Positions 14,691-18,921 of a stretch of 64,000 bases of DNA are shown one piece after another. Positions within the stretch are counted from its first letter, which is position 1. Every line of letters begins with the position of its first letter. Source of the stretch: Amedibacillus dolichus DSM 3991 (GTDB lineage: Bacteria > Bacillota_I > Bacilli_A > Erysipelotrichales > Erysipelotrichaceae); contig NZ_DS483478.1 of the NCBI RefSeq assembly GCF_000154285.1, forward strand, positions 124,001-188,000, written 5' to 3'. The notes beneath the pieces were generated by a model. It searched no databases. It saw only the letters and a list, made by a program, of their open reading frames with translations, and was not told the origin of the DNA. A program made the translations under genes and the position numbers.

Positions 14691-15395
14691 ATGAAAATCA
14701 TAATTTACGATGATTGTATTGAAGATGTTAATCATCTAAAACGACTATTAGCGGATTTTTTTAATAAAATGTCTGTTGATTACAGTGTTGAAATATGTAA
14801 ATCAACAGAGTATCTCTTTACGCATATTGATGAATTTGATTTCTTATTTTTAGATATTGAAATCAATGATGAAAACGGAATAGAAATCGGAAAAAGATTA
14901 CTTAAGATACGTCATAACTGTCGTGTGATCATTACTTCACGTTATAAAAAATATTTGATTGACGGTTATAGGATACGTGCAGATCAATACTTTTTAAAAC
15001 CCATTCAAGAGGTGGTGTTTAATACCGAAATGGAAGATGAGCTCTATTTGTTTCAAATAAAGTATAGTGGGTTTTATGATGAAAATTTATCGAAAACAAA
15101 AATATTATATACCGATATTTTGTATGTTGATGTATATGACCGTAAAACCAGAATTCATTTTAAGAACGGGAAAATATTAGCTACACGCTATACTTTAAAA
15201 GAATGGGAAGAAAAGCTGGATCTTACGATTTTTGAGAAAGTACACAAAGCATACATCGTTAATTTGTTTTATATCAGCGCCTATTCCAATCAGGATATAT
15301 TACTGATGAATGGAGAAAATATTCCATTATCGAGAAATATGAAAAAGCATTTTGAAGAAAAATATATAGCATTATTACCGAGGATCGTATCATGA
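14691..15395 (+). CDS. LytTR-family response regulator (AgrA-like)
   Basis: The 234-aa protein has an N-terminal receiver domain (IIIYDDC at the start, phospho-acceptor Asp55 in FLFLDIEIND) and a C-terminal LytTR DNA-binding domain (about 130-230, with ILYVDVYDRKTRIHF). Such regulators control peptide-based quorum sensing, bacteriocin or surface functions. ATG 14691 follows AAAGGGGGG by 8 nt. The stop overlaps the next gene, an AgrC-like membrane protein, by 4 nt. No agrB or agrD homolog is seen. Likely targets are the secreted-protein genes at 16917-18366, by proximity only. Confidence 0.88.
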   Translation: MKIIIYDDCIEDVNHLKRLLADFFNKMSVDYSVEICKSTEYLFTHIDEFDFLFLDIEINDENGIEIGKRLLKIRHNCRVIITSRYKKYLIDGYRIRADQYFLKPIQEVVFNTEMEDELYLFQIKYSGFYDENLSKTKILYTDILYVDVYDRKTRIHFKNGKILATRYTLKEWEEKLDLTIFEKVHKAYIVNLFYISAYSNQDILLMNGENIPLSRNMKKHFEEKYIALLPRIVS

Positions 15396-16048
15396 GTATA
15401 TCGTTGATATTTTCGTTAATAGCTGAATTGTTAATTGTAGCATTTGTAGGCTTTTATCTATACACCCCAAGATTTCATAATAAGCTTATGAATGGCTTTA
15501 TACTTACAGGTATATTAGTATTTGCATTTTTAGCAAGCTTTTACAGACAGCCTCAGTATTTCGTAATTGCTACCTTGATGTGTTTTCTAGCACTGCTTCT
15601 TTTGTTATATAAAATGCCGCTGTTTTCGGGTATTTTGACTGCTTGTGTCCTGTTGCTTTTTACGGTAATCGGGGATTTTATATCTATGCTTATCATGAGC
15701 ATATCGTTACAATCCCAATATTTTTATGTATATGTTCCGCTTCAAAATTTCATATCATTATTGATATCCGATACCGTCTTTTTTCTTCTATCTGTTCTCT
15801 ATGTGAAATTTCAAAAAAAGATTTCCTTTCTTCAACCCATTAAATATTCATGGCTGATTTTGGTAGTGCTTGTGCCTACTGTGTTTTTATTGTTTTCGAT
15901 TCCGAATTACTTTTTTATGGTAGAAAATGACAAAGTGGTCATGTTTACTGTACTGTCGCTTATGCTATCGAATATAATTACTATTTTCATATTTTTTAAA
16001 TTTCAAATAAGTCAAAATATGAAATTGAAGCTTAAGGAAGAGGAATAA
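15392..16048 (+). CDS. AgrC-like sensor kinase, membrane half (gene split by in-frame stop)
   Basis: The 218-aa product has about six hydrophobic spans, as in AgrC-type peptide sensors, then a short basic/acidic linker ending KLKLKEEE at TAA 16046-16048. The same frame continues past the stop without interruption for another 199 codons, encoding the rest of a GHKL-type kinase. The stop is therefore a single-codon lesion, or possibly a site of readthrough or reinitiation. On its own this half could sense a ligand but not signal. It overlaps the response regulator gene by 4 nt. Confidence 0.75.
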   Translation: MSISLIFSLIAELLIVAFVGFYLYTPRFHNKLMNGFILTGILVFAFLASFYRQPQYFVIATLMCFLALLLLLYKMPLFSGILTACVLLLFTVIGDFISMLIMSISLQSQYFYVYVPLQNFISLLISDTVFFLLSVLYVKFQKKISFLQPIKYSWLILVVLVPTVFLLFSIPNYFFMVENDKVVMFTVLSLMLSNIITIFIFFKFQISQNMKLKLKEEE

Positions 16049-16123
16049 AAGAAAGAGGAGCTGAAAAAACAGATTTTACTTTATAAACAGTATTATCAAA
16101 ATCATTTCAATTTATTACATTCA

Positions 16124-16645
16124 TTGCTTCATCGTTATTCCGATATGAAGAAGAACATTATGAATCAACAATATGATGTATTGGAAGAAGCATTAGAGGA
16201 TCTGTCTACAAGTGTCTTTCATGAGTTTAATTCGATGTATTCGCAATCCTATACCTTGAATATGTTGATTACCGATAATCTTCAAACCTTAAAGGATTCC
16301 AATATACAGATAAGCACCAAATTAAAATGTATAGAGCTTCCGTTTGAAGAAGCAACCGATGAATATAATCTGTTTAAAGAGCTTCTGAATATAGGCATCA
16401 ACGCTTGTCAATCATTTTCTGAAAGTGTGATTTATATTTTGTCAGAAGATCATTACTCGCAAATCGTATTTCAATTCATATATCCTGCGATAGCTGATGA
16501 AACGGAAAAAATTGTCGGTAATAAGGTGTTGGAAAAGATTATCCATAACAATAATATTCATTCTGTGTATCGTTATAATGACAAAAATCAAGAGATGAGA
16601 ATTGCTCTTATTTTCCAAGCTAAAACAAACGAGCGAATCGAATAA
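16124..16645 (+). pseudogene. AgrC-like sensor kinase, cytoplasmic half (downstream of the internal stop)
   Basis: Same reading frame as 15392. Codons 16049-16645 are open and encode KKEELKKQILLYKQYYQNH, then a dimerisation-like segment with LLHRYSDMKKN and the remainder of about 175 residues. TTG 16124 is the first possible start, but no ribosome-binding site precedes it, so separate translation is doubtful. The C-terminal part lacks a clear G-box (Gly-x-Gly) of GHKL ATPases, so even the joined protein may be an atypical or inactive kinase. Most simply a pseudogene fragment of the 417-aa ancestor. Confidence 0.65.
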
Positions 16646-16719
16646 TGTGATTTTGAATAGCTTTTGTGTTTAAAATGTCGGATTTTTGTTTAAGGTGAAA
16701 TTTATCCATTGTGCTTACG

Positions 16720-16916
16720 TGATATACTGTGTATGTAGGATAAGTCCTAATGTTTATGAATAGCATACTCGTTTTGAGAGAATGCCATTCAAGTAAGGGA
16801 GGAGATACACATGGTTGTTTGAATGGGAAAGACTTAGATCTATTTGAATAACTTATCACACTCAGCCTACTTTACATACTATGTAAAATTCGATATGGAG
16901 AAAGGACGGTAATATT
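16720..16916 (+). promoter_or_regulatory. Promoter and long structured leader of the first secreted-protein gene
   Basis: Extended -10 TGA-TATACT (16720-16728) is followed by a leader of about 190 nt. CCATTCAA (16785-16792) pairs with TTGAATGG (16819-16826). The loop holds a strong ribosome-binding site (GGGAGGAG) and a mini-frame ATG GTT GTT TGA at 16811. The leader could regulate translation or encode a tiny peptide; no known riboswitch is recognised. Confidence 0.4.
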
Positions 16917-17300
16917 ATGAAAAAAGTATTTAGTGCAGTATTGATGTTCGCTCTTTTAGCTTTACCGATGACGATGCTTTCGGCAAAAGAAACGAGTGAA
17001 AACGAATTGTATTCAAAGGTGGGAAACCAATTTCCGAGTGCTATTAACAATGTCAGATTAGAAGCTTACTTGGAAGCTGTTGAACAACAGGTGTTTCCGG
17101 GACTTGAAGATGATGAGTTGTTAGTGCATGAAAAAGAAGACGGAGGTTTCTTAAGTAGTAGCATTGATGATATCGAATCTGTAAAAAAATACCATGAGGA
17201 AGTGAATGGTGTTGAATGCGAAATCGTAACCGGAAAGGAAGCAAAGGAAATTTATAAACAATCGTTACGACAAGCTTTGATAGAGGAGTATAATGAATAA
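16917..17300 (+). CDS. Small secreted protein, paralog 1 of 3
   Basis: The 127-aa precursor begins with a signal peptide (MKKVFSAVLMFALLALPM, likely cut after LSA) and is otherwise acidic and soluble. I do not recognise the family. It shares with the next two genes the blocks FPGL-Asp-Asp-Glu-Leu, GGFL and AKEIYK near the C-terminus. No Cys is found behind the signal peptide, so it is not a lipoprotein. ATG 16917 has AGAAAGGA upstream. It follows a LytTR two-component pair and may be its target or its signal, which is inference from position. Confidence 0.8.
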   Translation: MKKVFSAVLMFALLALPMTMLSAKETSENELYSKVGNQFPSAINNVRLEAYLEAVEQQVFPGLEDDELLVHEKEDGGFLSSSIDDIESVKKYHEEVNGVECEIVTGKEAKEIYKQSLRQALIEEYNE

Positions 17301-17439
17301 TTAAAGGGGAAATGATCCTGTTATGAAAATGGAAAAAAAGTGGAGGTTATGAACGTAAAAGTTCTGTTTCCTTCACTTTTTAGGTAAGCGAATATAGTAA
17401 GATTATGAACTTTTAGATTTAAAAATTTTTATAGTTATG

Positions 17440-17448
17440 TGATATACT
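17440..17448 (+). promoter_or_regulatory. Promoter of secreted paralog 2
   Basis: Extended -10 TGA-TATACT, identical in core to the element at 16720 and followed by similar TATG-AGG sequence; about 65 nt upstream of the gene. Confidence 0.55.
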
Positions 17449-17513
17449 ATTTATGAAGGTAGCGTTAAATAAGTTATGGAGAAATAAGAGTTTATGAAAA
17501 GGAAAAAGGATCT

Positions 17514-17963
17514 ATGAAAAAGGTATTAGGTTCGGTATTTATCTTAGGTTTGGCAGCTTTAGCAATCACTACGATTTCCGCCAAGCCAGTCGATCAACAG
17601 AACTTACACCAACTGGTTGGTGAACGATTTGACGGAGTCATTCGTAAGCTTAAGTCGGTAAATTTGGAAAAATGTGAACAGGTTGGGAAGCTTGGAAAGC
17701 TTGAATTAGAGGAATATGAAAAAATACTGTTTCCCGGATTGAAAGATAATGAATTTGTGGTACGCATAAATGATGGTGGCTTCTTATATGATGGAAACCC
17801 TAATCCTCAAATTACGAAAGAAGGATTTGAGGCGTTAAATGGAGATGTTAAGGGTGAAATTATGACTGTAAAAGAGGCAAAGGAAATTTATAAACGAGAA
17901 TTGGTGCAATGCTATAACGAGATGTTAAATGAGAAGAAAAAGCATCATGAGAATTGTTTTTAA
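17514..17963 (+). CDS. Small secreted protein, paralog 2 of 3
   Basis: The 149-aa precursor has a signal peptide (MKKVLGSVFILGLAALAI, likely cut after ISA). The mature part shares LFPGLKDNEFVV, GGFL and AKEIYKREL with its neighbours, plus an extra charged insertion (about 45-65, with CEQVGKLGKLELEE) and a Lys/His-rich tail. It contains two or three Cys, unlike paralog 1. Its own promoter resembles that of paralog 1, so the gene was probably duplicated with its control region. Function unknown. Confidence 0.8.
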   Translation: MKKVLGSVFILGLAALAITTISAKPVDQQNLHQLVGERFDGVIRKLKSVNLEKCEQVGKLGKLELEEYEKILFPGLKDNEFVVRINDGGFLYDGNPNPQITKEGFEALNGDVKGEIMTVKEAKEIYKRELVQCYNEMLNEKKKHHENCF

Positions 17964-18015
17964 ATTATAATTGTTTTCATAACGGTATGCTGTGTAAGTG
18001 AAGGAGATAAAGGTT

Positions 18016-18366
18016 ATGAAAAAGGAATTAAGTATGATATTCGTATTAGGTATCTCGGCTTTATTTATTACCGCAATGTTAACAGAGGCAGAGAGATTGC
18101 AAAAGCTTGAAGTGGAAAAGGAAATAAACACTACGTTAAAAGCATTGAATAAGAATCTGTTTCCCGGTTTGAAAGACGATGAGTTGGTAGTACGGGTCAA
18201 TGAGGGAGGCTTCTTACATAGTGATATTAACGATGCCGAAACTACGAAAAAAGAGTTTGAGGAATTAAATGAAGGTGTGAAATGCAAAATTATGACCGTA
18301 GCACAAGCAAAGGAAATTTATAAAAAAGAGCTCTTGGCTTCTTATGGCATATCATTGGATAAATAA
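18016..18366 (+). CDS. Small secreted protein, paralog 3 of 3
   Basis: The 116-aa product has an N-terminal hydrophobic segment (MKKELSMIFVLGISALFITAM) whose cleavage site is less clear than in the other two. The shared blocks LFPGLKDDELVV, GGFL, IMTVAQAKEIYKKEL are strong. ATG 18016 follows AAGGAGATAAAGG; the longer in-frame reading from 17998 would include the ribosome-binding site. The intergenic sequence (about 17985-18010) resembles the promoter region of paralog 1 (GCTGTGTA). The gene ends before a two-way terminator. Confidence 0.78.
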   Translation: MKKELSMIFVLGISALFITAMLTEAERLQKLEVEKEINTTLKALNKNLFPGLKDDELVVRVNEGGFLHSDINDAETTKKEFEELNEGVKCKIMTVAQAKEIYKKELLASYGISLDK

Positions 18367-18413
18367 AGAAAAGAGTATGATTTTATTATTACATATAAGC
18401 TTTAAACTAAATG

Positions 18414-18468
18414 AAAACGATGATTATAAGGCTGAAATCAATGTTTTAACCCGTAAGTCATCGTTTTT
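18414..18468. terminator. Two-way terminator between convergent genes
   Basis: AAAACGATGA (18414-18423) pairs with TCATCGTTTT (18458-18467). Both flanks are A/T-rich enough to end transcription from the secreted-protein genes (plus) and from the GtrA operon (minus). Confidence 0.6.
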
Positions 18469-18516
18469 AATATATGTAGATATTCTTTTGTGAATACATG
18501 GATATATCAAATAAAA

Positions 18517-18921
18517 CTATTTCTTGAAAATATAAAACTTACTGAAGATATAATTCAATATTATCACTACCACATTGGAAAGTATCTTCATCAGCATATT
18601 GTTGAAATGCAGGCAATCAACAAAAATTATCATGAAGCATAGATCTAAGATACCGGTTGCCAGACGACAACCGTAAAACGATATAATTTCTTTTATGATT
18701 GAACCCTTTGATACGGCATTGCTGTGAAAGACCCAAAGTTTATTTGTAAGATATGCGAAAATAACAGAGAGCAGCCAAGAGAGAATGGTGCTGATGGAAG
18801 TACCTAAGGAAAGGAAATAAAAGCTGATATAATATACGATAATATTTACCGCTGTGGTACATATTCCGAAGAATATATACAAAATCATTTCTTTATACTT
18901 ATGAAATATTTGCATCATCAT
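18517..18921 (-). CDS. GtrA-family membrane protein
   Basis: About 134 aa with four membrane spans. Features typical of GtrA are KYKEMILYIFFGICTT at the start of the first span, a conserved SWLLSVIFAYLTNKLWVF segment and FYIFKK at the end. GtrA-type proteins are thought to flip lipid-linked sugars across the membrane. The start is set at the run of three ATG codons (18921, 18918 or 18915), which overlap the end of the GT2 gene. It is the last gene of a three-gene minus-strand operon with a GT2 transferase that would charge the lipid carrier. Confidence 0.85.
   Translation of the reverse strand: MMMQIFHKYKEMILYIFFGICTTAVNIIVYYISFYFLSLGTSISTILSWLLSVIFAYLTNKLWVFHSNAVSKGSIIKEIISFYGCRLATGILDLCFMIIFVDCLHFNNMLMKILSNVVVIILNYIFSKFYIFKK

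Follow-up and report, generated by a model that had tools for sequence, protein, structure and literature searches.

A predicted secreted-protein domain shared by a tandem gene triplet of Amedibacillus dolichus, an M56 sensor and an Enterococcus plasmid cassette

The window analysed here, a 64,000-nucleotide stretch of the genome of Amedibacillus dolichus DSM 3991, carries three small genes in tandem, which we named P1, P2 and P3. P1 (16917..17300, + strand) encodes a protein of 127 aa, P2 (17514..17963, +) one of 149 aa and P3 (18016..18366, +) one of 116 aa. The start of P3 is most likely ATG 18016, preferred over the GTG 17998 of the ORF list because a ribosome-binding site lies between the two. 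Each protein has a Sec-like N-terminus, read by eye as MKK and a hydrophobic stretch, consistent with the signal peptides that a first-pass annotation of this DNA had assigned to all three and that we treat as putative. We found that the mature parts are homologous (pairwise BLASTP E values of 2e-15, 4e-22 and 6e-25, each calculated for one single comparison), in agreement with the earlier description of three small paralogous reading frames at 16917-18366. The sequence blocks named there (FPGL-Asp-x-Glu, GGFL and AKEIYK) are likewise common to P1, P2 and P3, the first in the form FPGL-[EK]-D-[DN]-E, with FPGL, GGFL and AKEIYK invariant in the alignment. The N-terminal parts and tails are variable, and P2 has additional residues N-terminal to the core. 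The three proteins are paralogues with a common core of ~65 residues, which we named the P domain (17067-17270 in P1, 17703-17906 in P2 and 18133-18336 in P3). A core profile, of which the window rows are themselves part, matched them with E values of 8.1e-17, 4.6e-21 and 2.6e-22, and no fourth P copy was found in this genome by homology and profile searches.

The triplet adjoins a LytTR-family response regulator gene (14691..15395, +; PF04397, E 3.1e-16, and PF00072, E 9e-10, in Pfam), for which ATG 14691 was preferred over the TTG 14670 of the ORF list, and an AgrC-like sensor gene (15392..16645, +). An in-frame TAA at 16046-16048 breaks the sensor frame, with the membrane part upstream and the cytoplasmic part downstream of the stop, and a sensor homologue from another P locus, L065, aligns across it (22% identity, E 1.6e-13). 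The TAA may be real, strain-specific or an assembly error. Pfam matched no ATPase domain in either piece of the window sensor or in the sensor homologues of L065 and L068, and these three proteins may form a sensor class without kinase activity. The LytTR system previously noted beside the triplet is borne out for the regulator and less well for the sensor, with its TAA and its missing ATPase match. Because the sensor gene is interrupted, control of P1-P3 by this system appears doubtful.

The first-pass annotation had also held that the promoters share TGA-TATACT and that gene and control region were duplicated together. A pattern search and pairwise shuffles identified an element with an extended -10, TGATATACT, upstream of P1 (16715..16739, +), and its counterpart upstream of P2 (17435..17459, +) is identical to it at 21 of 25 positions, a score reached by 6 of 2000 shuffled pairs over this 25-bp stretch. 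TGATATACT precedes P1 and P2 only (two of the three genes), ~190 bp from the first and ~65 bp from the second, and occurs once more elsewhere in the window, a count that 3 of 100 shuffles reach; the looser TGNTATACT is at chance level there (27 of 100 shuffles). Ahead of P3 lies TATGCT (17986..17991, +) without the TGA, which can be read from the sequence as a possible weak -10 with no TG ahead. The region upstream of P3 resembles that of P1 weakly (82 of 2000 shuffled pairs do as well) and shows no similarity to that of P2 (681 of 2000). Both claims are supported for P1 and P2 only, and P3 has no clear copy of the element.

Genome-wide, the 17-bp core of the P1/P2 element, a pattern derived from these two sites themselves, has one other site with at most one mismatch. 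With at most two mismatches there were nine sites against seven in the control, which is no excess, and there is therefore no sign of a regulon beyond P1 and P2. A consensus promoter scan returned six promoter-like sites, fewer than in shuffles (8.4), and the stretch 16600-18560 yielded no terminator. Upstream of the P1 promoter, two 12-bp direct repeats, alike at 10 of 12 positions and 20 bp apart (16663..16694, +), are equalled by 14 of 659 window stretches and have nothing comparable at P2, P3 or the regulator; they are a possible, weak candidate for a LytTR site.

In searches of the family libraries we took a curated cut-off, or E 0.01 or better where none exists, as the mark of membership. 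P1-P3 gave sub-threshold matches only in Pfam and NCBIfam and none in PHROGs and PADLOC, which agrees with the earlier statement that they belong to no described family. Names suggested by weak matches, among them telomerase CTE, AHL lactonase and the MiiA motif, were all sub-threshold and were not adopted. Neither the P domain nor the W domain described below matched anything above cut-off in Pfam, NCBIfam, PHROGs, PADLOC or PDB sequences, confident family matches were confined to neighbour genes, and a bacteriocin model did not match any of the proteins searched. The P domain and its plasmid cassette have no family entry in these libraries. Searches of open-access literature, a scope that leaves subscription journals mostly outside, gave nothing that could be tied to the P family or the cassette and no mention of the four protein accessions tried.

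A single-protein search revealed a distant tandem P pair, and a five-row profile gave matches in 15 of 315 genomes of the order at E 0.01. With the core profile, 12 of the 315 genomes were matched and 10 were convincing, the window's included; the matches in G121 and G070 were dropped as chance. The profile search with the aligned core that had been proposed as a check has in this way found the P family beyond the window. Among 392 genomes of the phylum seven were matched, the convincing ones being the window genome and one relative only, and matches in five genomes outside the family were dropped as chance. Members occur in Holdemanella sp., Faecalitalea cylindroides ATCC 27803 (two loci), uncultured Faecalicoccus and Erysipelotrichaceae assemblies. 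A profile of the window trio matched a profile of 11 non-window members with a probability of 96.2 and an E value of 2.4e-9. The core consensus is roughly F-x-G-L-x(3)-[DE]-K-V-L-x-[LM]-P-[DN]-G-G-[FY]-L-x-G-E-A ... Y-N-S-x-T-D-P-N-[AS]-I-T-V-x-E-A-K-E. The P-core tree is poorly resolved, with 2 of 14 inner branches well supported, and the window trio groups together in it (support 94/93). The genome samples had suggested that the family is confined to Erysipelotrichaceae, a view overturned by the plasmid matches given below.

We found that at four loci of the order (L063, L067, L068 and L073) a P domain leads into a junction, often with PR, behind which lies a domain of ~105 aa, which we named W. 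These P-W proteins also occur on plasmids (L150, L152, L153 and L154). In seven of the eight proteins P and W are separated by an xPR junction, the call for L073 depending on the frame read past a frame change. The W profile matched 7 of the 315 genomes, five convincingly and all in or beside a P gene; the matches in G170 and G261 were dropped as chance. P-W is intact in L063 and L068, and the W gene is interrupted at three of the five loci, by stops in L067, by a stop and a frame change in L073 and by a stop in L069. Since all three are metagenome assemblies, these breaks are possibly sequence errors. A separate intact free P gene is present at four of the five W loci (L063, L067, L068 and L073); at the fifth, L069, what looks like a free P gene may instead belong to the broken P-W gene as its P half. 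In L068 the best score of the free P is with the P-W of that locus but the reverse does not hold, and in L063 the free P and the P of the fusion are not each other's closest relatives; the case for locus-specific pairing of free P with P-W is weak. The W profile found no match in the window's genome.

Structure prediction, which had likewise been proposed as a check, gave a model of P2 with a mean pLDDT of 79.7 and values of 84-95 in the core blocks. The modelled core consists of a helix, a strand, a helix, a strand and a long helix. Foldseek found no match to this model at E 0.001 or less in the PDB and BFVD, and the best VIA-align result had a Z of 3.3 and an rmsd of 4.7 over 84 aligned residues, so that the check yielded a confident core but no credible fold match. 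In a model of the Faecalicoccus P-W protein, strands stand in the P half where the P2 model has its middle helix, and no credible fold match was found in the PDB. This model is dependable in the P half only (residues 84-170 and 172-196 have pLDDT below 50), and for this reason it offers no fold for W and no readable P-W contact.

The P-W protein of L063, a locus from a Faecalicoccus assembly, matched 247 of 72,556 plasmids, 239 from Enterococcus, five from Lactococcus and three from Staphylococcus, at best with ~42% identity over 98% of its length. On plasmid 3 of the E. faecium isolate E8202 the gene order is a 150-aa protein, P-W, an Rv2525c-like hydrolase-like protein and a 131-aa protein, a four-gene cassette at L150:8535-12641 (NZ_LR135346.1). 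The 150-aa protein is a free P, matched with E 1e-7 for 1000 sequences by a core profile built without it; it also has a weak PHROGs match, to phrog_8881 (E 0.005), at residues 29-75, outside the core. The third gene encodes an Rv2525c-like glycoside-hydrolase-like domain with a peptidoglycan-binding domain, and the 131-aa protein has a hydrophobic segment. At least 80% of the cassette DNA was found in 232 of 292 records with a match. The free P was matched in 238 plasmids, a count made separately from the 247 for P-W. Judged by coverage only (at least 80%), free P is near full length in 229 of the 238 and P-W in 244 of the 247. Among the matches listed, the cassette genes are annotated as hypothetical or as glycoside hydrolase domain protein.

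An 8.5-kb plasmid of L. garvieae carries P-W, a 162-aa protein, a similar hydrolase-like protein and a 180-aa protein. Two smaller plasmids of Lactococcus (3.8 kb) hold P-W, a secreted-looking 151-aa protein, a protein of ~190 aa, a replication gene (annotated in one of the two) and few other genes. Neither the 151-aa nor the 162-aa partner resembles P significantly (E 1.2 to 10 for 1000 sequences). P2 itself had no match on plasmids, and neither P-W nor P had relatives in phages and viral contigs.

Twelve chromosomal P loci were read, the window and L063-L073. A LytTR or M56 regulator lies within 3 kb of P at seven of them: a LytTR pair in the window, L065 and L068, and an M56 membrane protease (Pfam) with an HExxH motif in L063, L064, L071 and L073. 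Each of these four M56 loci also has a BlaI-like gene, identified by a PF03965 match in L064 and by eye in the other three. The loci without a regulator at this distance are L066, L067, which is near a contig end, L069, L070, where a sortase-like gene (read by eye) adjoins P, and L072, where a LytTR-type pair is ~7 kb away. The ten P-carrying genomes have 16 M56 and 52 LytTR matches in total. Four of the 16 M56 matches are at P loci against ~0.05 expected, and 3 of the 52 LytTR matches against ~0.17; the loci are not fully independent, and these expectations, set on 11 stretches of 7 kb against 12 loci counted, rise by about a tenth. The link of P to membrane-sensing regulators exceeds chance, and it is not specific to LytTR, because M56 systems are equally common at P loci. 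L065 has, in addition, an ABC pair 3-4 kb upstream and a member of the Rv2525c-like Pfam family ~3 kb from P on the other strand. We also observed a secreted-looking 289-aa protein with NLPC_P60 above cut-off ~300 bp downstream of the P pair of L071 (L071:7442-8311), and a lipoprotein-like protein whose single chain contains two P-domain matches, both weak (domain E 3.4e-5 and 1e-7), at L072:8086-8877.

At L064:8211-9308 the M56 sensor itself ends in a P domain (domain E 1.2e-19). The M56 protein of L071 ends in a different motif, around 'RLYN', which corresponds to a free, secreted-looking ORF of ~70 aa behind M56 in 6 of the 16 M56 matches (L110-L114 and L117) and, in L073, to the N-terminal region of a P protein. 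The free ~70-aa protein has the motif G-x-[LE]-[YW]-[KR]-R ... W ... W. A BlaI-like gene accompanies three of the six M56/~70-aa pairs (L110, on contig C3 of the window's genome, L113 and L117), and two of the pairs also stand beside other secreted-looking cargo, of 135 aa in the window's genome and 205 aa in L117. Near the 135-aa protein and its BlaI-M56 pair, on contig C3 of the window genome (L087:6576-9804), are a LytTR regulator and ABC-transporter-like genes.

The earlier reading of the triplet had allowed for signals, bacteriocin-like factors or immunity proteins. Fusions and plasmid cassettes favour the bacteriocin-like option, with P as a putative antidote or pro-domain. The secreted look, the P-W fusion with PR, the free P, the small plasmids and the wall-binding hydrolase-like protein together give these genes the look of a competition system, and the fusion of P to an M56 sensor suggests that P detects W. 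Our tentative proposal, which we favour while granting that it may well be wrong, is that P serves a bacteriocin-like protein as its recognition domain or pro-domain and that the window copies are orphan and antidote-like. From the homology, fusions, co-location and plasmid cassette of P and P-W we infer the processing, binding, killing, neutralisation, sensing, immunity and regulation that this proposal would require. P1-P3 would be free copies of a secreted recognition module. P-W would be exported by Sec with its P half folding or masking the W half, and a cut at the frequent xPR junction would release W, whose targets would be neighbouring cells or the wall around them. It is possible, as speculation, that host trypsin makes this cut after arginine in the gut; ruminococcin A is a precedent for cleavage by host trypsin there. 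Free P, from the producer or from immune relatives, might then bind and neutralise W. A P domain on an M56 sensor could report external W and turn the locus on via the BlaI-type repressor, and the LytTR pair may take the role of the M56 sensor at other loci. With its three free P genes and its lack of W, the window would represent an array of orphan antidotes whose members diverged so that several W variants are covered.

Several observations count against the antidote proposal. The window's copies are without a visible W partner in the genome, the P gene of L069 may be no separate free P, the Lactococcus partners lack significant similarity to P, the pairing within loci is weak, the P2 and P-W models differ mid-core, and no bacteriocin model matched. 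Bacteriocin immunity is, moreover, usually membrane-bound or intracellular and not secreted.

If P were instead the extracellular ligand of the neighbouring sensor, AgrC-like or M56, the loci would form a cell-density or kin-recognition circuit with W as an optional output. The presence of membrane-sensor regulators at 7 of 12 P loci fits such a circuit, the P domain of the L064 sensor could be a tethered ligand, and a tandem of diverging secreted genes next to a receptor is typical of signals that change specificity. Mature P proteins of ~90-125 aa are nevertheless large for peptide pheromones, and inspection of the gene lists by eye revealed no processing gene. Five of the 12 loci are without a regulator within 3 kb (one of them, L067, is cut by its contig and another, L072, has the more distant LytTR pair), the annotation, with incomplete gene tables for these plasmids, shows none near the Enterococcus cassette or in the 3.8-kb plasmids of Lactococcus, and the sensor frame in the window is interrupted. 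We regard a signalling role as rather unlikely.

It is unlikely, too, that free P genes are remnants of P-W after loss of W, passively kept or duplicated. The P protein of Faecalitalea (L065) does end directly past a PR junction (EPRHGGYY), the P frame of L069 stops just ahead of a W-like stretch in another frame, and interruption of three of the five W genes of the order would fit such decay. Against this, the core is kept in all three window copies, their frames are open and two of them have a promoter element in common; a six-frame scan of the window found no W relic; and plasmids carry free P next to P-W, both close to full length in most records.

BlaI/M56 and LytTR systems often respond to envelope stress, and P could accordingly be an ordinary envelope or stress protein under cell-wall sensors with no role in competition. 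Patchy presence (10 of 315 genomes convincing) and spread on plasmids are unlike housekeeping, and we consider this improbable. That P proteins are secreted effectors, antibacterial or host-directed, with W as an accessory binding domain is very unlikely: P1-P3 are small, tandem, divergent and secreted-looking, with variable N-terminal parts and tails, but fused P is the N-terminal half ahead of a frequent PR junction, as a pro-domain would be, and P as the end of a sensor (L064) would be odd for a toxin.

The bacteriocin-like proposal can be set beside known systems. As in the LytTR-controlled bacteriocin cassettes of Gram-positive bacteria (blp, pln and Agr-like), tandem small secreted-looking proteins lie beside a LytTR regulator and an AgrC-like sensor, related P cargo is found on small plasmids, and an accessory gene has a peptidoglycan-binding domain. 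Unlike these cassettes, the P loci have no double-glycine leader (by eye) and no common exporter gene, and the P partner is secreted-looking whereas their immunity protein is in the membrane or cytoplasm. The secreted-looking P-W proteins end in a Trp/Tyr-rich domain of ~100 aa, in which they resemble the lactococcin 972 family (PF09683). However, a scan of the W-bearing proteins of L063, L067, L068, L073, L150 and L153 (hmmscan, Pfam, to E 0.1) gave no PF09683 match, nor did the window genome (G000). The M56 protease and BlaI-like gene at four P loci recall BlaR1/MecR1 and BlaI/MecI (PF05569 and PF03965), but Pfam reported no penicillin-binding domain in the M56 proteins of P loci, whose outer end is a P domain in L064 and the 'RLYN' motif in L071. 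By analogy with RsiV, a dual sensor and inhibitor of lysozyme, a single extracellular fold may serve to sense a foreign wall-active protein as well as to bind it.

More doubtful than the proposal itself is a broader reading, in which one extracellular fold would have three uses: the pro-domain of P-W, a free secreted antidote and the ligand-binding end of a BlaR1-like M56 sensor. Were it true, a single exchangeable module, common to Erysipelotrichaceae chromosomes and to Enterococcus and Lactococcus plasmids, would underlie attack, protection and detection alike. If the bacteriocin-like proposal is correct, it would put a name to a so far uncharacterised secreted system, found in its fused form on 247 of 72,556 public plasmids, most of them from Enterococcus and with the listed genes annotated as hypothetical, and would provide a testable logic for how one domain may serve as antidote and sensor. 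Whatever its function, the P domain ties together a gene array of a gut commensal, an unusual M56 sensor end and a widespread plasmid cassette.
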